A stretch of 64,000 bases of DNA, taken from NCBI GenBank assembly GCA_007745835.1, contig CP036424.1, positions 1,449,001-1,513,000 on the forward strand. Direction: 5' to 3'. Of this stretch, positions 5,230 through 56,278 are shown piece by piece. The stretch comes from Planctomycetes bacterium MalM25. GTDB lineage: Bacteria > Planctomycetota > Planctomycetia > Pirellulales > Lacipirellulaceae. The notes beneath the pieces were generated by a model. The model was not told the DNA's origin. It did not search any database and saw only the letters and a program-made list of their open reading frames with translations. The translations under genes were made by a program, and so were the position numbers. How positions within the stretch are numbered: the stretch's first letter is position 1; each line of letters begins with the position of its first letter.

Positions 5230-6252
5230 ATGCCGGGACCGACTCCGCAACCAACGACTCCGCCAGCCGCTCCCCCTCCTGCGGTCGGGGAGCTGTTCGC
5301 GCCAATCGCCCCCGCTTTGGAGCGGGTCGAGCAACGGCTGCAAGCGGAGCTCACCAGCGACGACCCACGCGTCGACGAGGTCGTCCGCCACGGCTACCGC
5401 CTGGGTGGAAAGCGGCTGCGTCCGGCCCTGGTCCTGCTCGCGGGCGGGGCCGTCGGCGAGGCGACGGCGGATCACGAGTTGCTCGGCGTGGTGGTCGAGA
5501 TGATCCACACGGCCACGCTTGTCCACGACGACGTGCTCGACGAGGCCGAACTGCGCCGGCACGTCGATACGGTGAACGCCCGCTGGGGCAACGAGAAGAG
5601 CGTCCTGTTGGGTGACTTCCTGTTCTCGCACGCGTTCTATCTGGCCGCCACACTCGACGGCAACGCTGCCGAAGCGTGCCGCCTCATCGGGCGCAGCACC
5701 AACCGCGTCTGCCACGGCGAGCTGCGGCAGACCCTCTCGGAGGGCGACCTGTCGCTCTCCAAAGAAGCCTACTACGACATCATCGACGGCAAGACAGCCG
5801 AGCTGTGCGCCTGCTGCTGCCGCCTCGGCGCGGTTTACGCCGGGGCGACCGCCGAGCAGGCAGACGCGATGGAGTCGTTCGGACGCAACCTCGGCATGGC
5901 GTTCCAGATCGCCGACGACCTGCTGGACCTCACCGGCGACGAGGCGACCACCGGCAAGACGACCGGGGCCGACCTCGCGAAGCAGAAGATGACGCTCCCG
6001 CTCATCTACACCCGCGACAGCCTCGTGAACGGCCCGCGGAACAATCTCGAGGATTGGCTCACGAAGCCCTCTGCGGAGTCGCTCGCCGAGGTCCGCAAGC
6101 TGGTCGAAGCGGTGGGCGGGTTCGCTTACGCGCAGCAGAAGGCTTCCGACTACGCCGACGCCGCCGCCAACGACCTGAAGGCCCTACCAGAAACGGACGC
6201 CCGCGAGACGCTGGCCCTCTTAGCCCGGTTCGCGAGCCGGCGTGATGCTTGA
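5230..6252 (+). CDS. Polyprenyl (E)-prenyl diphosphate synthase
   Basis: This trans-isoprenyl diphosphate synthase condenses allylic diphosphates with isopentenyl diphosphate for quinone side chains or carotenoid precursors. Both Asp-rich Mg-binding motifs are present: DDVLD at residues 100-104 and DDLLD at 229-233. The substrate-binding GGKRLRP stretch lies at 59-65. At 340 residues it has the size of octaprenyl/heptaprenyl synthases, with an extra Pro-rich N-terminus of about 20 residues. Product chain length cannot be read safely from sequence, so I give no symbol. The ATG at 5230 is the only good start. The 3' end overlaps the convergent small membrane gene by 33 bases. Confidence 0.93.
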   Translation: MPGPTPQPTTPPAAPPPAVGELFAPIAPALERVEQRLQAELTSDDPRVDEVVRHGYRLGGKRLRPALVLLAGGAVGEATADHELLGVVVEMIHTATLVHDDVLDEAELRRHVDTVNARWGNEKSVLLGDFLFSHAFYLAATLDGNAAEACRLIGRSTNRVCHGELRQTLSEGDLSLSKEAYYDIIDGKTAELCACCCRLGAVYAGATAEQADAMESFGRNLGMAFQIADDLLDLTGDEATTGKTTGADLAKQKMTLPLIYTRDSLVNGPRNNLEDWLTKPSAESLAEVRKLVEAVGGFAYAQQKASDYADAAANDLKALPETDARETLALLARFASRRDA

Positions 6253-47102: not shown

Positions 47103-48347
47103 ATGATCAGCCTCGGCAGCCCGACCGATCGCATCGTCATCACCGGGATCGGTCTGACCTCGCCCAACGGCAACACGCTCGCCGAGTACCGGCAGGCGTT
47201 GCTCGACGGCCGCAGCGGAGTGAGCGACTACGAGATCCGCTACGTCGGCAAGACGCTCGCCGGCGTCTGCGACTTCGACGAACTGAAGTACCAGAAACGC
47301 CGCAACGTCCGCCGCGGCACGCGGGCGGCCAGCATCGCGATCTACTGCGCGAACGAGGCGATCGCCGACTCGGGCGTCGATTGGGACAACACCGACCGCG
47401 AGCGTGTCGGCGTTTATCTCGGCGTGACCGAGCACGGCAACGTCGAGACCGAGAACGAGATCCACGAGATCAAGGGCTACGACTACGACACGAGCGTCTG
47501 GTCGCACCACCACAACCCCCGCACCGTCGCGAACAACCCGGCCGGTGAGGTCACGCTCAACCTCGGTATCACCGGGCCGCACTACACGATCGGCGCCGCC
47601 TGTGCGGCGGGCAACGCCGGCATGATCCAGGGCGCCCAGATGCTGCGCCTCGGCGAGTGCGACGTAGCGATCGCGGGGGGCGTCTCCGAGAGCATCCACA
47701 CGTTCGGCATCTTCGCCGGATTCGCCAGCCAGGGCGCGCTCGCCGAGAACGACGACCCGGCCAAGGCCTCCCGCCCGTTCGATAAGTCACGCAACGGCAT
47801 CGTCGTTTCCGAGGGCGGCGCTATCTATATCCTTGAGCGGTACGAGGACGCGAAGCGTCGCGGCGCCAAGATCTACGGTGAGATCGCCGGCTACGCGATG
47901 AACTCCGATGCGAGCGACTTCGTCCTGCCCAACCCGGACGAGCAGTCCCGCTGCATGCGGATGGCGCTCGATCGGGCCGGCATGCAGGCCGAGGACGTCG
48001 GCGTCGTCAGCACCCACGCCACCGCGACCACCAGCGGCGACATCCAAGAATGCGAGGCGGTCCGCCGCGTGTTCGGTGCGAGCGAGCCGACGCTGATCAA
48101 CAACACGAAGAGCTACATCGGCCACGCGATGGGGGCCGCCGGCGCGCTGGAGCTTGCGGGCAACCTCCCGTCGTTCGATGACGGGGTCGTCCACCCGACC
48201 ATCAACGTCGACGAGCTCGACCCCGAGTGCGAAATCCCCGGCCTGGTGATCAACGAAGCCCGCGAGGGCGCCAAGGTCGACGCCATCCTCAACAACTCAT
48301 TCGGCATGCTGGGCATCAACTCAGCGCTGATCGTTAAAAAGGTTTAA
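47103..48347 (+). CDS. Beta-ketoacyl-ACP synthase (FabF-like)
   Basis: This 414-residue KAS enzyme elongates acyl-ACP with malonyl-ACP. The active-site Cys is C167 in GAACAAGNAG, with His in STHATATTSGD and NTKSYIGHAMGAAG, so it is a catalytic synthase, not a chain-length factor. Sequence around SVWSHHHNPRTVANNP is unlike housekeeping FabF, pointing to a specialised pathway. It opens a same-strand group with an ACP, two FAD oxidoreductases, FabZ and FabI. The ATG at 47103 is typical (MISLGSPTDRIVITGIGLTS). Confidence 0.9.
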   Translation: MISLGSPTDRIVITGIGLTSPNGNTLAEYRQALLDGRSGVSDYEIRYVGKTLAGVCDFDELKYQKRRNVRRGTRAASIAIYCANEAIADSGVDWDNTDRERVGVYLGVTEHGNVETENEIHEIKGYDYDTSVWSHHHNPRTVANNPAGEVTLNLGITGPHYTIGAACAAGNAGMIQGAQMLRLGECDVAIAGGVSESIHTFGIFAGFASQGALAENDDPAKASRPFDKSRNGIVVSEGGAIYILERYEDAKRRGAKIYGEIAGYAMNSDASDFVLPNPDEQSRCMRMALDRAGMQAEDVGVVSTHATATTSGDIQECEAVRRVFGASEPTLINNTKSYIGHAMGAAGALELAGNLPSFDDGVVHPTINVDELDPECEIPGLVINEAREGAKVDAILNNSFGMLGINSALIVKKV

Positions 48348-48437
48348 CCCGCGAATAACGCGAATGGCCGCGAATCGGAACCACAGCGCACTTAGCTAGA
48401 CGGTACACGATTCGCGCTTATTCGCGTTATTCGCGGG
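48348..48437. repeat. Inverted repeat between the KAS and ACP genes
   Basis: Arms 48348-48365 and 48420-48437 match perfectly over 18 bp, and pairing resumes inward for 9 more bp (48369-48377 with 48408-48416). A 30-base spacer remains. The words CGCGAATAACGCGAAT recur within the arms. It starts right at the KAS stop and may form a large hairpin in the transcript. Confidence 0.8.
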
Positions 48438-48463
48438 AACAGAAAGGCAATGCGAGAGAAGCT

Positions 48464-48724
48464 ATGACCCGCGAAGACATCCGCGAAGAGATCCTCGACA
48501 TCCTCGGCGACATCGCCCCGGACGAGGACCTCAGCGATCTGGACGACTCCAAGAGCTTCCGCGACCAGATGGAGCTCGACTCGATGGACTTCCTCGACAT
48601 CGTGATGGAACTGCGCAAGCGCCACCGCGTGCAGATCCCCGAGGAGGACTACCCCAACCTCGCCAGCATGGATTCGACGGTCCAGTACCTCGAGCCCATG
48701 ATGAAGGACATCGTGAAGGCCTGA
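48464..48724 (+). CDS. Acyl carrier protein
   Basis: This 86-residue acidic ACP has the phosphopantetheine site S40 in the DSMDF motif (family DSL/DSM). It carries the growing acyl chain for the neighbouring KAS, FabZ and FabI. The MELDSMDFLDIVMELRKRH helix is specialised-ACP-like rather than the housekeeping AcpP. It starts with ATG at 48464. Confidence 0.92.
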   Translation: MTREDIREEILDILGDIAPDEDLSDLDDSKSFRDQMELDSMDFLDIVMELRKRHRVQIPEEDYPNLASMDSTVQYLEPMMKDIVKA

Positions 48725-48744
48725 TGGCCTTGAGTAGGCAGTAA

Positions 48745-48810
48745 GCAGAGGGCGGTAGGCAGTTGGAGCAGCCACTGCGCGGCTTGCTGTTTCTGCCTAC
48801 CGCCCTCTGC
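48745..48810. repeat. 18-bp inverted repeat upstream of FAD oxidoreductase 1
   Basis: Arms 48745-48762 and 48793-48810 are perfectly complementary over 18 bp, with a 30-base spacer, the same spacer length as the repeat at 48348. Related words occur at 61531-61551. It fills the gap between the ACP stop and the oxidoreductase start. Confidence 0.8.
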
Positions 48811-48828
48811 CTTCTGCATACTCCACTC

Positions 48829-50253
48829 ATGTACGACACCATCATCATCGGCGCCGGCATGAGCGGGCTCGCCGCCGGCATCCGGTTGGCGATGTACGAC
48901 CAGCGCGTCTGCGTGCTGGAGAAGCACACCACGATCGGCGGGCTCAACTCGTTTTACCGCCTCCGCCGGCGGGACTACGACGTCGGCCTGCACGCGCTGA
49001 CGAACATCACGCCCAAGGGGACCAAGCAGGGCCCCCTCGCGCGGCTGCTGCGGCAGCTCCGCTTCAAGTGGGACGACTTCCAGATCTCGCCGCAGATCGG
49101 TTCGCAGATCGTCTTCCCCGGGCACAAGCTCGCGTTCGACAACGACCCCGAGCTGCTGCAGGCCGAGGTCGCCCGCGACTTCCCAGCGCAGGGGGACAAC
49201 TTCCGGCGGCTGGTCGCGTCGATCTGCGACTACAACGACCTGACCGACGAGCACCAGCAGCTCTCGGCCCGCGAAGTGGTCGCCTCGTACGTGAGTGACC
49301 CGGTGCTGGTCGAGATGCTCTTCTGCCCGCTCATGTTCTACGGCTCGGCGCGCGAGCACGACATGGATTGGGGGCAGTTCTGCATCATGTTCCGCAGCAT
49401 CTTCCTGGAGGGCCTCGGCCGCCCCCACGCCGGCGTGCGGTTGATCCTCAAGAACCTCGTGAAGAAGTTCCGGGGGCTCGGCGGCGAGCTGAAGCTCCGC
49501 ACGGGCGTCGACCGCCTGCACGTGGAGGACGGCCGCGTCGCGGGCGTGAAGCTCGACAGCGGCGAGATGATCACCGGCAAACGCGTCCTCTCCTCGGCCG
49601 GCTGGTGCGAGACGATGCGCCTGTGCGACGACGGAACGCCCGTCGAGGTCGCCGGCTCGCCGCAGCGTTCGGCGGGGCGGCTCTCTTTCTGCGAGACGAT
49701 CAGCACGCTCGACGTTGATCCGAAGGAGATGGGCTACGATCGCACGATCACCTTCTTCAACGACCACGACCGCTTCGACTGGACCGTGCCCGAGGTCCCG
49801 TGCGACTTGCGTTCAGGCGTGATCTGCAGCCCGAACAACTTCGACTACGTTGCCGAGGACGGGGGCGCCAAGGGCCTCGACGACCGCAACGGTGGCCACG
49901 GCGTGATGCGCACGACCGTGCTCGCCAACTTCGATTACTGGAACGGTCTTAACGAACAAGATTACGAGCTCGAAAAACTCCGCTGGTTCGAGGCGATCAA
50001 CGAGGCCGCCGTCCGCTTCACGCCCGACTACCGCGGGCGGATCATCGACACGGACATGTTCACGCCGACGACGATCGTTCGCTTCACCGGCCACGACAAC
50101 GGCGCCGTCTACGGCGCGCCGGAGAAGCAGCTCGACGGCACGACGCACCTCGACAACCTGTTCGTCTGCGGCACCGACCAGGGCTTCGTCGGCATCGTGG
50201 GGAGCATCGTCAGCGGCATCGGCATGGCGAATTTGCATTGTTTGAAGGACTGA
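48829..50253 (+). CDS. CrtI-like FAD-dependent oxidoreductase 1
   Basis: This 474-residue flavoprotein of the phytoene desaturase/carotenoid isomerase superfamily has an FAD-binding IIIGAGMSGLAAGIRLAMY, then EKHTTIGGLNSFY, and a C-terminal LDNLFVCGTDQGFVGIVGS that closes the flavin site. Its place with a KAS and an ACP suggests it desaturates or isomerises an acyl chain rather than a carotenoid. The ATG at 48829 (MYDTIIIGAG) is chosen; the frame upstream is only repeat sequence. Confidence 0.88.
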   Translation: MYDTIIIGAGMSGLAAGIRLAMYDQRVCVLEKHTTIGGLNSFYRLRRRDYDVGLHALTNITPKGTKQGPLARLLRQLRFKWDDFQISPQIGSQIVFPGHKLAFDNDPELLQAEVARDFPAQGDNFRRLVASICDYNDLTDEHQQLSAREVVASYVSDPVLVEMLFCPLMFYGSAREHDMDWGQFCIMFRSIFLEGLGRPHAGVRLILKNLVKKFRGLGGELKLRTGVDRLHVEDGRVAGVKLDSGEMITGKRVLSSAGWCETMRLCDDGTPVEVAGSPQRSAGRLSFCETISTLDVDPKEMGYDRTITFFNDHDRFDWTVPEVPCDLRSGVICSPNNFDYVAEDGGAKGLDDRNGGHGVMRTTVLANFDYWNGLNEQDYELEKLRWFEAINEAAVRFTPDYRGRIIDTDMFTPTTIVRFTGHDNGAVYGAPEKQLDGTTHLDNLFVCGTDQGFVGIVGSIVSGIGMANLHCLKD

Positions 50254-50262
50254 GCCCATGAA

Positions 50263-50474
50263 AGCCCCGAAGGGGCGCTAAGGCGATAGCCCAGGGCAAC
50301 GCCCTGGGAATTCGGAACAGTTCACCGATTGGCAAGCCCTGAAAGGGCGACATACCCCTGTCACCTCGTCAATCCGGCGTTGCGTCCTCTCAGGGCTCCT
50401 CGGTGGTTACCGTGGCGAACCGTCACCCAGGGCGTTGCCCTGGGCTATCGTATTTCACCCCGATGGGGTGATCG
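50263..50474. repeat. REP-like palindrome module, left of the transposase
   Basis: This is an ordered array of small palindromes. It contains GCCCCGAAGGGGCGC, then GCCCAGGGCAACGCCCTGGG at 50289-50308, AGCCCTGAAAGGGC at about 50335, and then inverted versions of each, including 50426-50446, ending in CACCCCGATGGGGTG. The array thus reads as one unit and its mirror image, as in BIME/REP pairs. Confidence 0.8.
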
Positions 50475-50492
50475 CCTTCGGCGGTGGCTCAC

Positions 50493-50945
50493 ATGGCGCA
50501 ATCACTGGCGAATGTCATCGTTCATTTGGTGTTTTCAACGAAGCACCGGGTGCCGTTGATCGACGCCTCGGTCGAGGCCGATCTGCACGCCTATCTCGCG
50601 GGCGTCGCCAAGCACCTCGATTGCCAGCCGCACAAGATCGGCGGCGTCGAGGACCACGTGCATGTGGCGTGCTCGCTAGCGCGGACGATCGCGGTCGCCG
50701 ACCTCGTTCAGGAACTCAAGCAATCCTCCTCGAAGTGGATTAAGATCCGCAGCGATGCGTGCGGTTCCTTCGCGTGGCAGAACGGCTACGGCGCCTTCTC
50801 GGTTAGCCAGTCGCACCTCGAAGCGTTGCGGCGATACGTCGCCACTCAACGCGAGCATCATCGACAGCAGACCTATCAAGAAGAATTCCGAACCCTCCTG
50901 GAGCGATACCGAATCGACTACGACGAACGCTACGTCTGGGATTGA
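50493..50945 (+). CDS. Y1 (IS200/REP-associated) transposase
   Basis: This 150-residue HUH single-strand transposase has the metal-binding H55-V-H57 (EDHVHVAC), the catalytic Y115 (LRRYVATQREHH) with Q119, and the N-terminal VIVHLVFSTKHR strand of TnpA_Y1 proteins. Such enzymes bind and move hairpin ends. It is flanked on both sides by palindromic modules with the same 20-base core, as in RAYT-REP systems. The ATG at 50493 is preferred over GTG 50484. It appears intact. Confidence 0.92.
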   Translation: MAQSLANVIVHLVFSTKHRVPLIDASVEADLHAYLAGVAKHLDCQPHKIGGVEDHVHVACSLARTIAVADLVQELKQSSSKWIKIRSDACGSFAWQNGYGAFSVSQSHLEALRRYVATQREHHRQQTYQEEFRTLLERYRIDYDERYVWD

Positions 50946-50952
50946 TTCCCCA

Positions 50953-51137
50953 ACAGCCCCAAAGGGGCGCAAGACAATAGCCCAGGGCAACGCCCTGGGA
51001 AACGTGGCGCCCTACGGAACACCAGCCCTGAAAGGGCGAAACACAACGCGGTGTGACGCCCCTTCAGGGCTCCGTGCTCAACGCCCCAACCGACCCAGGG
51101 CTTCGCCCTGGGCTTTCATCTCGGCGGCCCTTCGGGC
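50953..51137. repeat. REP-like palindrome module, right of the transposase
   Basis: This is the second copy of the module, in direct orientation. GCCCCAAAGGGGCGC comes first, then the same 20-base core at 50980-50999, AGCCCTGAAAGGGCGA at about 51024, TTCAGGGCTCC, and an inverted CCCAGGGCTTCGCCCTGGGC at 51094-51113. It ends a few bases before the start of the broken gene. Confidence 0.8.
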
Positions 51138-51151
51138 CTGGGTTTGCTACG

Positions 51152-51885
51152 ATGCATCGTATGACCTCCGAGCCCACCCCGCCAAAACGCCGCCCGCGGA
51201 TCTCGTTGCTGAGCTTGCTATTGTTGATGGCGGTGGTTGGGACAACGCTCATGACGTGGATGCAATGGCGTGAGCTCGGCCCTCTACGCACGGAGAACCG
51301 TCGTCTCAAAGAAGAGCGTGGCGATTTGTTTGTCGCCGACCCGAAGCGTGTCCACGCGATTCGCATCCCGAAGGACTTCGTCACGAACCAGAACTACGCG
51401 TTTCGGGTCTGGGTTCCGAGGGACGGGCGCAAGTACTTCGCCGTGATGTGCTTGGAAGCCCTGCCGCGTGCAGGGGTTCCCGCGACCGAGCAGTGGTCGG
51501 ATGGCTTAGCGCTAGGGACGTCGGGCGGCAAGGCATACGCCAGTTCGACCCCGGTGAGAACGTGATCTACCTGCGACACGAGCGGGTCGACGAGCAGACC
51601 CGTGGCGTACGCCTGACGATGGGCGGGCCCACAAACGCCTGGGTCGATGCGACGACTCGCTTGCAAGCCCCTAGGGTAGGGACCGACGGCTACAGTGTGT
51701 ACCCGTCGGGTGTCCGCGGCGCGACGGAGTCGGCGGCGCCGGACGAGCCTCTGGTTTTATTGCGGGAGCGGTACGAGCCGGGTGCGGGGACTTTCACCAC
51801 GGGCTGGCGAAACGAGCCCGACTATCCGCTCGATGGCCTGATGCTTTGGATCGAACCGCTCCCCGATCCGCCCCCGCTCCGCTAG
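51152..51885 (+). pseudogene. Membrane-anchored hypothetical protein, frameshifted
   Basis: The first frame, from ATG 51152 or 51161, gives a basic N-terminus, a membrane helix (ISLLSLLLLMAVVGTTLM), a short coiled coil and a domain beginning ADPKRVHAIRIP. It runs off at 51565. A second frame continues sensibly as FDPGENVIYLRHERVDEQTRGV and ends at 51885. A single base missing near 51548-51552 (GCCAGTTCGACC) explains both. The joined protein of about 240 residues resembles small planctomycete membrane proteins of unknown function. Either a recent mutation or a sequencing error is possible. Confidence 0.6.
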
Positions 51886-51930
51886 ACTACGGGGTCTCCA
51901 AACGACCGCTGCCCCCGCCCGCTAGCTCCC

Positions 51931-53406
51931 ATGCCCAAAGACTTCCTCGCCGGCGCCAAGGACCACTACGACGTCGTCGTCATCGGCGCCGGCCTCGCCG
52001 GGCTGACCTCGGCCAATATCCTGGCCCGGCAGGGCCGATCGGTCCTGCTCCTCGAACAGCACTACAAGCTGGGCGGGCTGGCGACCTGGTTCAAGCGGCC
52101 GGGGCGCCACATCTTCGACATCTCGCTGCACGGCTTCCCGTACGGCATGGTCAAGAGCTGCCGCCGGTACTGGTCGAAGGAGATCGCCGAGCGGATCGTG
52201 CAGCTCACCGGCATCCGGTTCGAGAACCCGATGTTCAGCCTGCGGACCGACTTCACCCGGGCCGACTTTACCAAGAAGCTCATCGAAGATTTCCAGGTGC
52301 CCGAAGAGACCGTCAAGGCGTTCTTCGACACGGCCCGCGGCATGAACTTCTATGATGACCAAGAGACCACCGCGCGCGAGCTGTTCGACAAGTTCTTTCC
52401 CGGCCGCGAGGACGTGATCCGCCTGCTCATGGAGCCGATCACCTACGCGAACGGCAGCACGCTCGAGGACCCGGCGATCAGCTACGGCATCGTCTTCAGC
52501 AACTTCATGTCGAAGGGGGTCTTCACGTTCGAGGGCGGAACCGACGCGCTCATCACCGCCATGGGCGAAGAGCTGGTCAAGTCGGGCGTCGACGTCCGCA
52601 TCAAGTCGGACTGCGAGAAGATCCACGTCGATAAGGAACGCGTGACGGGCGTCACCGTGAACGGCCGCCACATCAAGTGCGACGCGGTCGTCAGCAACTC
52701 GAACCTCCGCTCGACGATCTTCCGCCTGTGCGGCGAGGAGGTCTTCGACAAGGCGTTCATCGACGAAGCCAAGGCGGTCCGCATCAACAACAGCAGCACG
52801 CAGGTCTACATGGCGCTCAAGCCGGATGACCCACTCGAGGAGTCGACCGGCGACCTGCTGTTCACCAGCACGGCGCCGACGTTCAACACGGCCGACCTGC
52901 TGTCGCGCGACATCACCAGCCGCACTTACTCGATGTACTACCCGCGGACCCGCCCCGAAGGCCGGCCGCAGAAGCTGATCGTGTCGAGCACGAACGCCCG
53001 CTGGGAGGACTGGGCCGACTTGCCCGAGGAGGAGTACCAGGCGAGCAAGCGGGACCTCTGCGAGACGACGCTCGACGCGCTCGACAAGTACGTGCCCGAC
53101 GCCCGCAACCGGGTGGTCCACGTCGAGGCCAGTACGCCCCGCACGTTCAACCACTACACGCACCACGTCGCCGGGGCGAGTTTCGGCACCAAGTTCGAGG
53201 GCCTCGCCGTGAGCCGCGCCCTGCCGCAGCAGGTCCGCGGCCTGTACCACGCGGGGAGCGTGGGGATCATCATGTCGGGCTGGCTCGGCGCGATGAACTA
53301 CGGCGTGATCGTCGCCAACGAGGTCGACAACAGCCTGATGACCGGCGGCAGCACCAGCACCGACGCCGCGGAGAAGGCGGTCGCCGCGGACACGGCGGCG
53401 GGGTGA
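51931..53406 (+). CDS. CrtI/CrtISO-like FAD-dependent oxidoreductase 2
   Basis: The product is 491 residues, a second flavoprotein of the phytoene desaturase/carotene isomerase/RetSat group. It has FAD-binding [36 protein letters not shown], and a C-terminal [20 protein letters not shown]. It differs clearly from oxidoreductase 1, so the pair may catalyse successive steps or form a heteromer. The start is ATG 51931. The Y1 transposase and a broken gene separate it from oxidoreductase 1. Confidence 0.88.
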
Positions 53407-53412
53407 GTGGGT

Positions 53413-53994
53413 ACCGCAGATGGACACCGATCGTAGCCATGCCTGAACGATTCTTGCTGGAACCATTCGGGCAGATTGACACCAGCAGTGACGACTACTG
53501 GGAAGCTACGCTGGGCTACTGTGGGCACAACGTACGGCTTGATCTCAACAGCGACCTCGGAATCGTAACTGATGCCGGAGTCGAACAGGCAGGTAAGTTC
53601 CTGTCAGACATTGAACGGCTTGATAAGACTGCTAAAGCAGCAATCCGCGAAGAGCATCTTGATATCGAAGGTGATGCGAGATTGTTCCAATCGCATCATC
53701 TTGAGTGTCTGAGCGATGAAATCTGGCTCCTTCATTTAGGCGAAGCGAAGCCGTCTGAGGGCGATTGGGATGGGTTCCTCGCCCAATGCAGGTTGCAACG
53801 AATCGGCATCTATCTTGAGGACATGGATCAGTTCGTAATCTTGGACTACGTGCTCGGTGACGAACTCACAGACTACGTACTATCAGTTAGTCTTGATGCA
53901 TCAGGTACGGCTCGGAGTGTCGTCATGGAAAGCTGAGCAGCTACGGTCAGTCATGGACTTCCACTCTCCTGAGCATCTGTGTTTATCTGTGACG
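53413..53994. repeat. Degenerate inverted repeat around the DUF2004 gene
   Basis: ACCGCAGATGGACACCGAT at 53413-53431 and, inverted, ATCTGTGTTTATCTGTGAC at about 53975-53993 match at about 13 of 19 positions. They bracket the AT-richer DUF2004 gene. The words resemble an interspersed planctomycete hairpin of the ...CAGATGGACACAGAT... type. The match is weak and its role uncertain. Confidence 0.4.
53439..53936 (+). CDS. DUF2004 domain-containing protein
   Basis: This 166-residue protein matches DUF2004: PFGQIDTSSDDYWEATLGY near the N-terminus, IGIYLEDMDQFVILDYVLGDELTDYVL and a final VVMES. The family includes proteins listed as immunity proteins against polymorphic toxins, but no toxin is next to it here. 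G+C is about 47% in a sampled 60-base line, well below the flanking oxidoreductase gene. It therefore looks acquired. The ATG at 53439 is preferred to GTG 53403. Confidence 0.78.
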   Translation: MPERFLLEPFGQIDTSSDDYWEATLGYCGHNVRLDLNSDLGIVTDAGVEQAGKFLSDIERLDKTAKAAIREEHLDIEGDARLFQSHHLECLSDEIWLLHLGEAKPSEGDWDGFLAQCRLQRIGIYLEDMDQFVILDYVLGDELTDYVLSVSLDASGTARSVVMES

Positions 53995-53999
53995 AATGA

Positions 54000-54081
54000 C
54001 CGGGGCCGTAGCGAAGCGTAGCCCCCGGTGAATCACCAGCACGGCGTCCGCTTGCTAAACCCGGGGGCTTCGACCCCGGCC
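54000..54081. repeat. Short GC-rich palindromic elements
   Basis: Two small hairpin-like elements lie between the DUF2004 and GNAT genes: CCGGGGCCGTAGCGAAGCGT with the following GCCCCCGG at about 54000-54028, and CCGGGGGCTTCGACCCCGG at about 54061-54079. They look like the two ends of another interspersed repeat. No promoter can be assigned. Confidence 0.5.
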
Positions 54082-54106
54082 ACCCCACTTGGGTTCTTCA
54101 GCCACG

Positions 54107-54574
54107 ATGATCCGCCCTCTCAAGTCCGACGACCTCCCCGCCGTCAAAGCGGTCATCGACGCGTGCGGGTTGTTCCCGTCGGAGATGCTCGACGAGATGG
54201 TCGCGGCGTTCTTCGGCGAGGAACCTTGCCAGGAGTTCTGGTTGGTCTACGACCCGCCCGAGAGCGAGGGCGCGCCGGTGGCGGTCGCGTACTGCGCTCA
54301 GGAACGGATGACCGAGGGGACGTGGAACCAGCTGCTGATCGCCGTCCACCCGGAGCATCAGCGTCAGGGGATCGGCACGCAGCTGATGCAGGCGACCGAG
54401 GGGGTGCTGCGGGAGCACCGGCAGCCCCTGATGCTGGTCGAGACCTCGGGGACTGACGAGTTCGAGCCGACCCGGGCGTTCTACCGGGCCGCCGGCTACG
54501 AGGAGGAGGCCCGCCTCCGCGACTTCTACGCCCCGGGCGACGACAAGATCGTCTTTCGCAAGGCGCTCACTTAG
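54107..54574 (+). CDS. GNAT family N-acetyltransferase
   Basis: This 155-residue acetyltransferase shows the acetyl-CoA loop HPEHQRQGIGTQLM at about 88-101, a variable N-terminus (MIRPLKSDDLPAVKAVIDACG) and the C-terminal AFYRAAGYEEEARLRDFYAPGDDK. The substrate is unknown. The ATG at 54107 is preferred to an upstream start at 54089. It lies between the DUF2004 gene and fabZ, in the same direction; whether it belongs to the acyl-chain cassette is unclear. Confidence 0.9.
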   Translation: MIRPLKSDDLPAVKAVIDACGLFPSEMLDEMVAAFFGEEPCQEFWLVYDPPESEGAPVAVAYCAQERMTEGTWNQLLIAVHPEHQRQGIGTQLMQATEGVLREHRQPLMLVETSGTDEFEPTRAFYRAAGYEEEARLRDFYAPGDDKIVFRKALT

Positions 54575-54600
54575 CTTAGCCGGTCGAGCAGGGCGAGGCC

Positions 54601-54620
54601 CCCAGGTTCAAGAACCTGGG
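54601..54620. repeat. Short palindrome
   Basis: CCCAGGTTCAAGAACCTGGG has 9-bp arms around a 2-base centre, 27 bases after the GNAT stop. It is another short palindromic unit, too tight to be a standard terminator. Confidence 0.6.
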
Positions 54621-54657
54621 CTAGCGGATAGACTCTGCCTAGAACCAGTTTCGTAAC

Positions 54658-54749
54658 GCCTCTCCCCCGGTGGGGAGAGGCTGGGAGAGGGGCGAGACCT
54701 CGCGGCACGCAACCCTCCCCTAGCCCCTCCCTGAAAGGGAGGGGGATAA
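54658..54749. repeat. Paired-hairpin repeat upstream of fabZ
   Basis: A hairpin with 9-bp arms (about 54659-54680) and a second hairpin (54725-54745) form the same paired layout as inside ileS. The last 38 bases (54712-54749) are identical to 55394-55431 upstream of fabI. Confidence 0.82.
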
Positions 54750-54817
54750 GAAGCCCTGCTTCTACAAACCCGTTCGCGTTGCTAGGCATTCCCCCCAGCG
54801 GTCCCCTGTTTGTCAGT

Positions 54818-55270
54818 ATGTCCAAAGAAGCGATCCAAGCCGCCATCCCGCACCGGGACCCGTTCCTGCTGATCGACCAGATCGTCGAGCAGACCGACGA
54901 GCGCATCGTGTGCAAGCGCTCGTTCTCGGGCGAGGAGTTCTGGTACCGCGGGCACTACCCCGACTACCCGCTCACGCCCGGCGTGCTGCTGTGCGAGGCG
55001 TGCCTGCAGGCGGGCGCCGTGCTGCTGTCGAAGATCACCGAGGCGGCCCAGGAGGGGCAGGGCAATGCGGGCGGGGTGCCGGTCGCCACGCGGCTGAACA
55101 ACGTGCAGTTCCGCGACATGGTCCGCCCCGGCGACTCGGTGACGATCGAGGTCGATCTGACCGAGCAGGTCTCGAACGCCTTCTTCATGAAGGGGCGCGT
55201 GAAGAACGACACGACCGGTAAGCTCGCGGCGCGGTGCGAGTTCGCCTGCACGGTGGCTTCGCCGGGTTAG
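54818..55270 (+). CDS. 3-hydroxyacyl-ACP dehydratase FabZ-like
   Basis: This 150-residue hot-dog-fold dehydratase removes water from 3-hydroxyacyl-ACP. The catalytic His is in RGHYPDYPLTPGVLLCE, where the following Glu completes the pair. The 54818 ATG (MSKEAIQAAIPHRDPFLLID) fits FabZ N-termini and is preferred to TTG 54779. It belongs to the KAS-ACP-oxidoreductase cassette rather than a lipid A operon, so it is probably a pathway-specific copy. Confidence 0.92.
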   Translation: MSKEAIQAAIPHRDPFLLIDQIVEQTDERIVCKRSFSGEEFWYRGHYPDYPLTPGVLLCEACLQAGAVLLSKITEAAQEGQGNAGGVPVATRLNNVQFRDMVRPGDSVTIEVDLTEQVSNAFFMKGRVKNDTTGKLAARCEFACTVASPG

Positions 55271-55282
55271 CAGGCTTCGATT

Positions 55283-55431
55283 CCCCTCCTTTTCAGGGAG
55301 GGGCTAGGGGAGGGTGTTAAGCCTCCCGCGATGTGGACCTACCTGTGGTAATCGCCCTGTGGTACAGGTTGGACGATTGTTCTGAACATCTTTACCCTCC
55401 CCTAGCCCCTCCCTGAAAGGGAGGGGGATAA
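55283..55431. repeat. 33-bp inverted repeat (paired hairpins) between fabZ and fabI
   Basis: Arms 55283-55315 and 55394-55426 are complementary over 33 bp with one mismatch, around a 78-base spacer. Each arm also folds into its own hairpin. The right arm continues to 55431 as the 38-base unit shared exactly with 54712-54749. Its GGGAGGGGG lies at ribosome-site distance from the fabI start codons. Confidence 0.85.
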
Positions 55432-55438
55432 AGTGACG

Positions 55439-56278
55439 ATGCCCGTTGACTTCCTCCAACTCGCCGGCCAGACCGTCCTGGTGACCGGCGTGGCGAACAA
55501 GAAATCGGTCGCTTGGCGGATCGCCAAGATGCTGACCGACGCCGACTGCCGCGTGATCTACTCGGTCCGCAGCGAGGCCCGCCGCGAGCCGATCCAGAAG
55601 CTGGCCGGGCCGGACGCGACCGTCCTGGTCTGCGACGTCGAGCACGACGAGCAGATCGAGCGCCTCGCCGCCGAGGTGGCGGCCGACTGTGAGCGGACGG
55701 GGCAGAAGCTGGCCGGGCTGGTCCACTCGATCGCGTTCGCCGACTACGACCCGGCTGACCTGGAAAAGGGCCCCCGCCCGTTCCACGAGACGACCCGCCA
55801 GCAGTTCGCCCGCACGTTCGGCATCAGCTGCTTCTCCCTGGTGGCGCTGGCGAATGGGCTCAAGGACTCGATGGCGGAGGAGGCCTCGGTGGTGACGATC
55901 TCGATCAGCACCACCGAGATGGCGAGCGAGAATTACGGCTACATGGCGCCGATCAAGGCGGCGCTCGATTCGTCGCTCTGCTTCCTGGCGAAGAGCTTCA
56001 GCAAGTTCAGCCGGGTCCGCTTCAACGCGGTTTCGCCCGGGCTGCTGAAGACCTCGGCGTCGGCGGGCATCCCGGGGTACGTCGATTCGTACCTCTACGC
56101 CGAGCGGGCGACCCTCCGCAAGGAGGCCCTCAAAACCGACGAGGCGGCCGCCGCGGCGGTCTTCCTGCTGAGCCCCCGCTCCAGCGGCATGAACGCCCAG
56201 CGGCTCGTGATCGACGCCGGAATGCGGACCAACTACTTCGACGAGGAAATCGTCCGGGCCGTGGTCGAGAGGGGCTGA
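55439..56278 (+). CDS. Enoyl-ACP reductase FabI-like
   Basis: This 279-residue short-chain dehydrogenase-type reductase finishes each elongation round. It has [20 protein letters not shown] at the N-terminus (the FabI variant of the NAD loop), HSIAFADYD, and the catalytic Y-x6-K in [24 protein letters not shown]-like [19 protein letters not shown] follows. ATG 55439 is chosen; GTG 55433 six bases earlier is equally possible. The ribosome site GGGAGGGGG is supplied by an interspersed repeat. It ends the cassette. Confidence 0.92.

Follow-up and report, generated by a model that had tools for sequence, protein, structure and literature searches.

Polyunsaturated acyl chains are thought to derive either from (oxygen-dependent) desaturases or from the Pfa megasynthase. 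In Shewanella and its relatives OleA is described as condensing two predicted 16:4n-3 chains held on the acyl carrier proteins (ACPs) of Pfa, which yields a 31:8 ketone and, together with OleBCD, the 31:9 hydrocarbon (PMC6463001). Bacterial Pfa is reported to form its cis bonds through FabA-like domains by 2,2- and 2,3-isomerisation, with an enoyl reductase domain acting in the other cycles (PMC9702510; also PMC4882568), and pfa-like gene clusters of type I, found in deltaproteobacteria and in one planctomycete, have been suggested to feed olefin synthesis (Shulse and Allen 2011, PMC3098273). For Desulfotalea psychrophila, which makes C31:8 and C31:9 and is said to be without other known pathways to polyunsaturated fatty acids (PUFA), Rattray et al. 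(2009, PMC2649909) proposed clusters for type II fatty acid synthesis (FAS-II) with phytoene-dehydrogenase-like proteins; such hydrocarbons are there also reported from members of the Planctomycetes. Here, we describe a cassette of six genes in Planctomycetes bacterium MalM25 that encodes a FabF-like beta-ketoacyl-ACP synthase (KAS), an ACP, two flavin adenine dinucleotide (FAD) proteins of the CrtI superfamily (CrtI1 and CrtI2), FabZ and FabI, and that lies 2 kb from a gene for OleA. This cassette is probably a dissociated (type II) polyunsaturated-acyl synthase that feeds OleA and functionally replaces Pfa. It was analysed within a window of 64,000 nucleotides (contig CP036424.1, positions 1,449,001 to 1,513,000) from a complete genome of 4.72 Mb, here G000.

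The locus resembles the Pfa-OleABCD system of Shewanella in the presumed supply of polyunsaturated acyl-ACP to OleA and in that either synthase may share a locus with the ole genes, and Pfa is the other acyl source among OleA-bearing planctomycetes; Pfa, however, is a multidomain synthase with FabA-like isomerase domains, whereas the cassette consists of discrete FAS-II enzymes and two flavoproteins. With the anammox cluster kuste3603-3608, likewise from a planctomycete, it has in common that genes for a KAS, an ACP, a FabZ and a CrtI-like protein are neighbours. The anammox cluster, whose tabulated gene order (PMC4790861) is that of our anammox-type locus L122 (ACP-FabZ-FabF-FabF-CrtI-B12/radical SAM, for S-adenosylmethionine), differs in its two KAS, its single CrtI-like protein of another clade, its B12/radical SAM enzyme and the absence of FabI from the run, and the anammox-type genome sampled has no OleA over the cut-off. 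The Desulfotalea clusters, compared by description only, include the consecutive DP2405 and DP2406, both called phytoene-dehydrogenase-like, in a proposed FAS-II route to PUFA; the passages that describe them report radical SAM enzymes, tie the clusters to ladderanes and do not mention OleA (PMC2649909). CrtI, CrtD and CrtISO are like the cassette flavoproteins in fold and FAD-binding region, but the latter form separate clades, score far under the family cut-offs and stand in a FAS-II context. The cassette reads as working like Pfa, yet outside both the Pfa family and the ladderane set, and the idea nearest to it in the literature, as far as the relevant passages go, is that of Rattray et al. 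(2009, PMC2649909).

Distribution of the cassette, OleA and Pfa

CrtI2 served as marker for the cassette and PfaD as marker of the type I PUFA synthase (Pfa) in two samples, one of 59 genomes from the window's order, its own included, and one of 294 Planctomycetota genomes, with three genomes common to both. CrtI2 matches of at least 66% identity were present in 51 of the 59 order-sample genomes (two of them partial), and matches at E ≤1e-30 in 67 of the 294; the anammox-type genome G273 (26% identity) was removed from the cassette set, leaving 66. In counts that, like their statistics, treat related genomes as independent, the phylum sample held 107 genomes with OleA over the cut-off, 43 with PfaD and 65 with both CrtI2 and OleA. 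The 107 OleA genomes divided into 65 with CrtI2 only, 39 with PfaD only, none with both and 3 with neither, and the 187 genomes lacking OleA into 1 with CrtI2, 4 with PfaD and 182 with neither. A search for PfaD in the phylum sample found it in none of the 66 CrtI2 genomes, nor was it found in G000. At the level of genera, OleA accompanied CrtI2 in all 41.

The order sample gave 49 genomes with CrtI2 and OleA (among them G022, whose OleA is partial and scores under the cut-off), 2 with CrtI2 alone, 2 with OleA alone and 6 with neither. PfaD was found there in G042 and G055 only, both without CrtI2. The former (99% complete) has OleA and OleC and no CrtI2, and carries PfaD as the pattern predicts; the latter (L265) lacks OleA as well. 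PfaD without OleA over the cut-off was seen altogether in G055, G123, G137, G180 and G320, which may make PUFA lipids without hydrocarbons or may be incomplete genomes. Outside the Planctomycetota, the named relatives of CrtI2 belong to a Nitrospinaceae, two Halobacteriovoraceae, two Opitutales and one unplaced bacterium, and in the Nitrospinaceae metagenome-assembled genome (MAG) the cassette order recurs in part. OleA exceeded its cut-off in 7 of the 8 genomes behind named loci and in 5 of the 6 of these outside the phylum. From this distribution and from the gene linkage given below we take the cassette to be the probable source of unsaturated acyl chains for OleA, a reading much firmer than that of isomerase activity.

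The phylogeny of OleA follows the same division. A quick tree without bootstraps was made from all 107 OleAs of the phylum sample with those of G042 and G011, rows with neither source being left unlabelled here and in a smaller tree. One clade (SH-aLRT, an approximate likelihood ratio support, of 100) united 39 of the 40 Pfa rows with G198 and held 0 of the 65 cassette rows; the acyl-source label required two changes, since G063 falls outside that clade. Families f21 and f66 and the window's order each contribute OleAs to both sides of the split, and OleA thus mostly follows the acyl source, not the species. G198 (L148) has neither CrtI2 nor PfaD, and its Pfa cluster was probably missed or lost; the placement of the OleAs of G061 and G338 is unsure. 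In the smaller tree, where two pairs of cassette rows represent one genome each and L115 and L116 were excluded as too short, a single branch parts 34 cassette rows from the 26 best-scoring Pfa rows.

Gene order and linkage to ole genes

Gene order was counted over 77 distinct loci (from L067-L144 and L219-L238, excluding L122, stretches of 3 kb or less and the window), some regions of which had been chosen for their long contigs. All six genes stood in order on one strand at 32 of the 56 loci with enough flank both ways, which is far beyond chance. KAS-ACP-CrtI1 preceded CrtI2 in this order at 44 of 63 loci with 4.5 kb upstream, and FabZ and then FabI followed it at 42 of 67 with 3 kb downstream. 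An earlier note on this DNA, written from the letters and their open reading frames (ORFs), had described the six genes, ordered and all on the plus strand, as a dedicated FAS-II-like cassette that includes an ACP of its own; ORF list and profile scans agree, and the order persists far outside close relatives. The note had also called the set an elongation cycle minus the ketoreductase. This holds for the window, where the FAS-II parts of the cassette are KAS, ACP, FabZ and enoyl reductase with no FabG among them, but not throughout: FabG stands between CrtI2 and FabZ at 8 of the 67 loci, so that the ketoreductase is part of the set in some distant lineages.

What the note had overlooked was oleA. 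Its six genes stand as described, but the stretch it delimited ended too early, for oleA belongs to the same story and its position beside the cassette points to the likely fate of the cassette product. At least one ole gene lay in the same stretch at 33 of the 56 loci, or at 31 of 54 if L236 and L238 are set aside, both of which were chosen for the presence of oleA on their contig. With four such genes in a genome of about 5 Mb, we roughly estimate that chance would bring one to within 20 kb in about 2% of cases. In five Pirellulales loci (L073, L076, L110, L141, L142) oleC-oleD lies upstream of KAS, and L115, L116 and L118 read oleABCD-KAS-ACP-CrtI1-CrtI2-FabZ-FabI. L236 reads KAS-ACP-CrtI1-CrtI2-FabG-FabZ-FabI-oleA-oleB-oleC with oleD further on, L102 and L094 have oleBCD after FabI, ole genes and cassette are divergent at L113, and at L091, from a Halobacteriovoraceae MAG, KAS-ACP-CrtI1-oleA-oleB-oleC-oleD faces CrtI2-FabG-FabZ-FabI. 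Such variation between lineages argues against a single inherited accident.

Between oleD and KAS, L118 also encodes (5571-6173) a weakly MarR-like protein, below the Pfam cut-off, which is a candidate regulator of the joint ole/cassette locus.

The Ole pathway in the window genome

The window OleA scored 421-423 bits against a cut-off of 285 for PRK09258/NF006720, and it alone in G000 exceeded that cut-off (runner-up 120 bits). PRK09258 we take to be the OleA family, as is borne out by its neighbours in other genomes: those read as OleC match PRK09274 over the cut-off and, next best, the models for olefin beta-lactone synthetases, and those read as OleD match models for 2-alkyl-3-oxoalkanoate reductases without reaching the cut-offs. 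In residue counts made here and below on aligned matches above an identity floor, with some genomes in twice, Cys123 of OleA was retained in 41 of 41, the His in 43 of 43 and the Asn in 43 of 43. Elsewhere in G000, OleB is encoded at C1:548247-549143 (46% identity to an OleB domain), and oleC and oleD adjoin each other near C1:605000. OleC reached 601.8 bits against 478 for PRK09274 and stayed below two narrower olefin models, and OleD reached 388 bits with its best family, yet under the cut-off of 580 for that family. With oleA, oleB, oleC and oleD all present, G000 encodes a full Ole pathway. In another genome (G040, L230:6469-9192) OleB and OleC are fused in one frame of 907 amino acids.

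The two flavoproteins

Structure models of CrtI1 and CrtI2 had a mean pLDDT (predicted local confidence) of 84.8 and 83.1. The fold search placed 4rep (CrtD) first for both and 4dgk (CrtI) second for CrtI1 and seventh for CrtI2, and 4dgk and 4rep were also at the top of a sequence-profile search with either protein; the fold searches returned only the CrtD/CrtI/amine-oxidase/Rab-GDI fold and gave no hint of the substrate. The best NCBIfam matches were carotenoid enzymes, at 51 and 85 bits against a CrtI-family cut-off of 238.1. In a quick tree of 44 rows, CrtI1 and CrtI2 formed separate clades with a support of 100 each. Eight carotenoid rows lay together on one side (support 88), apart from the cassette proteins, and the sole anammox row, L252, lay outside both cassette clades; the pairing of CrtI1 with CrtI2 as sisters (support 88) involves long branches and was not used. 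The flavoproteins thus group with none of the carotenoid enzymes tried, and action on acyl chains, as the earlier note had it, is most likely, with a polyunsaturated product likewise supported.

The plasmid collection searched held 11 records of CrtI2 relatives at 21.7-26.3% identity and no close mobile copy; three of these were included as rows in the flavoprotein tree. On a Persicobacter plasmid, a CrtI-like FAD protein (L279:8010-9509) is found near a KAS and chain-length-factor cluster, presumably flexirubin- or aryl-polyene-like, and a Streptomyces plasmid encodes another (L278:2992-4668) with a KAS neighbour.

Features of the window

The features at and near the cassette are collected in Table 1. 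All six assigned starts of the cassette genes are ATG; the ORF of CrtI1 is listed from TTG 48763, and its relatives start at the residue of the internal ATG. The residues that we take to be catalytic were retained throughout: in KAS the Cys and two His in 50 of 50 aligned matches, in ACP the Ser in 50 of 50, in FabZ the His and Glu in 58 of 58 and in FabI the Tyr and Lys in 47 of 47.

Table 1. Genes of the cassette, the four ORFs interrupting it, and oleA (window positions).
Feature	Position	Strand	Basis or remark
KAS, FabF-like beta-ketoacyl-ACP synthase, 414 aa (Cys167, His305, His341)	47103-48347	+	profile match, aligned residues
Cassette ACP, 86 aa (Ser40)	48464-48724	+	profile match, aligned residues
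CrtI1, CrtI-superfamily FAD protein 1	48829-50253	+	profile, structure model, tree
IS200/Y1 transposase, between CrtI1 and CrtI2	50484-50945		
ORF without Pfam match	51053-51565		
CrtI2, CrtI-superfamily FAD protein 2	51931-53406	+	profile, structure model, tree
ORF without Pfam or NCBIfam match	53403-53936		
GNAT ORF	54089-54574		
FabZ-like 3-hydroxyacyl-ACP dehydratase	~54818-55270	+	ORF listed from TTG 54779
FabI-like enoyl-ACP reductase	~55439-56278	+	ORF listed from GTG 55433
OleA-family thiolase, 343 aa	58403-59434	-	PRK09258/NF006720 profile

Palindromic repeats surround the Y1 transposase (50247-51139), with four copies of a 25-nt repeat of the type CCCAGGGC..GCCCTGGG, an arrangement like that of a REP (repetitive extragenic palindrome)-associated transposase unit, and Y1 homologues likewise stand between CrtI1 and CrtI2 at L135 and L144. 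Relatives of the first ORF without a Pfam match (31-46% identity) occur close to CrtI2 at several loci from the family to which the window belongs, most of them in the space between CrtI1 and CrtI2.

Discussion

In the route that we propose, KAS would elongate the chain on the cassette's own ACP, FabG (absent from the cassette in the window and included in it in some distant relatives) would carry out the ketoreduction, and FabZ the dehydration. In each cycle the trans-2-enoyl-ACP would then be either reduced by FabI or isomerised by CrtI1 or CrtI2, which would leave double bonds in the chain. OleA would pair the polyunsaturated acyl-ACPs, most likely 16:4, and OleB, OleC and OleD would convert the condensate to a long polyunsaturated hydrocarbon such as C31:9; both the identity of the product and its chain length are predictions. 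Working back from 16:4 (4,7,10,13), with two carbons added per cycle, we derive a schedule of reduction at C4, 2,3-isomerisation at C6, 2,2-isomerisation at C8, reduction at C10, 2,3-isomerisation at C12, 2,2-isomerisation at C14 and reduction at C16. Such a schedule would call for two isomerase activities beside a single enoyl reductase; among the cassette proteins are two flavoproteins and FabI. That both flavoproteins are isomerases, one from trans-2 to cis-3 and one from trans-2 to cis-2, has about even odds. Flavin enzymes of the same fold that isomerise double bonds include plant CRTISO and the linoleate isomerase of Propionibacterium acnes.

Several observations weigh against such a route. 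Enzymes of the CrtI superfamily are known chiefly as dehydrogenases, and the closest resemblance of both flavoprotein models is to CrtD. In the window genome itself oleB and oleCD lie far from the cassette. Upstream of CrtI2, 16 of the 63 loci had no KAS, ACP or CrtI1 on the same strand (one of them being L091, where all three face it), and downstream 17 of the 67 had neither FabZ nor FabI; in some genomes the cassette genes are thus scattered or on the other strand. The exchange of cassette for Pfa is read from a tally of genomes and from the OleA tree. CrtI2 occurs without OleA in G329 of the phylum sample (80% complete) and in G031 (82%) and G057 (88%) of the order sample, and the genome behind L099 has CrtI2 and no OleA over the cut-off; at that locus no further cassette gene was found around CrtI2. 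Conversely, G061, G198, G338 (54% complete) and G011 have OleA with neither CrtI2 nor PfaD. In G011, an order-sample genome 83% complete in 440 contigs that also has OleC, OleA is nearest to that of the window, and a missed cassette is likely. The PfaD genome G063 (L281) carries an OleA on a long branch outside the Pfa clade. Finally, every producer of C31:9 is stated in a review to make eicosapentaenoic acid (EPA) or docosahexaenoic acid (DHA) as well (PMC4882568), which speaks against a route without Pfa unless the survey was narrow; Desulfotalea is reported to do otherwise (PMC2649909).

Other explanations share parts of this evidence. The source of acyl chains for OleA could be as proposed and the flavoproteins could be dehydrogenases, in which case the product would be a hydrocarbon or ketone with a conjugated polyene chain, perhaps a pigment, instead of a methylene-interrupted C31:9. 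The nearest solved structures, CrtI and CrtD, are indeed desaturases, and desaturation was suggested for related proteins (Rattray et al. 2009, PMC2649909). The cassette exchanges, however, with a synthase whose cis bonds arise by isomerisation, and a conjugated product would leave less need for the enoyl reductase in the set; we hold this explanation to be unlikely. A role in supplying membrane phospholipids with unsaturated or polyunsaturated fatty acids, with an indirect tie to OleA, appears more doubtful still. Pfa of Shewanella and Photobacterium is described as serving EPA and hydrocarbon alike (PMC6463001), and OleA is missing from 4 genomes with PfaD and from a few with CrtI2 in our samples; against this stand the presence of OleA in all but one of the 66 CrtI2 genomes of the phylum sample, the ole genes at the cassette locus in several lineages, and the broad agreement between OleA lineage and acyl source.

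The earlier note had pointed to ladderane synthesis in anammox planctomycetes and considered a cyclised product. The parts are of the same kinds (KAS, ACP, FabZ, CrtI-like), but neither suggestion was supported: gene order differs, the radical SAM enzyme of the anammox-type cluster has no counterpart among the ten window ORFs scanned, the CrtI-like proteins belong to other clades, G273, of the anammox type, gave no OleA match over the cut-off, and nothing was seen that points to cyclisation. Kinship with the ladderane set was accordingly rejected, and a ladderane-type or otherwise cyclised fatty acid is very improbable. Carotenoid desaturases or isomerases lying by chance beside FAS genes are the least credible explanation of all, despite the carotenoid enzymes among the best NCBIfam matches; this role was rejected on the scores below the cut-off and the separate clades in the tree, no phytoene synthase was found in the ten window ORFs scanned, and the ordered KAS-ACP-CrtI1 upstream of CrtI2 at most loci is at odds with chance proximity. 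For two CrtI-like proteins of anammox bacteria, Javidpour et al. (2016, PMC4790861) report that no lycopene was formed in an E. coli lycopene strain lacking crtI.

Within the open-licence literature we found no account of the cassette, of its link to ole genes or of its exchange with Pfa. A query there for C31:9 together with 'planctomycete', the former being searchable only without its colon, gave nothing, and a paper that describes an in vivo assay of OleA (PMC7064751), searched for planctomycete names, mentions none. The polyunsaturated-acyl synthase proposed here may, with the case for it and against it about balanced, represent a third de novo route to polyunsaturated acyl chains, in which FAS-II with 2,3- and 2,2-enoyl-ACP isomerases of the CrtI superfamily makes 16:4 acyl-ACP for OleA. 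OleA lineages would then have been largely inherited with their acyl source, and the route would be the main hydrocarbon supplier in much of the Planctomycetota and would extend to scattered members of Nitrospinota, Bdellovibrionota and Verrucomicrobiota. If this is true, such small, separate enzymes would lend themselves better to study and engineering, and some CrtI-superfamily members would gain a role in fatty acid synthesis, one that the debate on ladderanes has raised as a suspicion without demonstrating it. The dissociated set could also explain C31:8 and C31:9 in Desulfotalea, said to be without other PUFA pathways, and would provide a source for polyunsaturated hydrocarbons in planctomycetes that lack Pfa, whereby an old lipid puzzle becomes directly testable at the level of genes.

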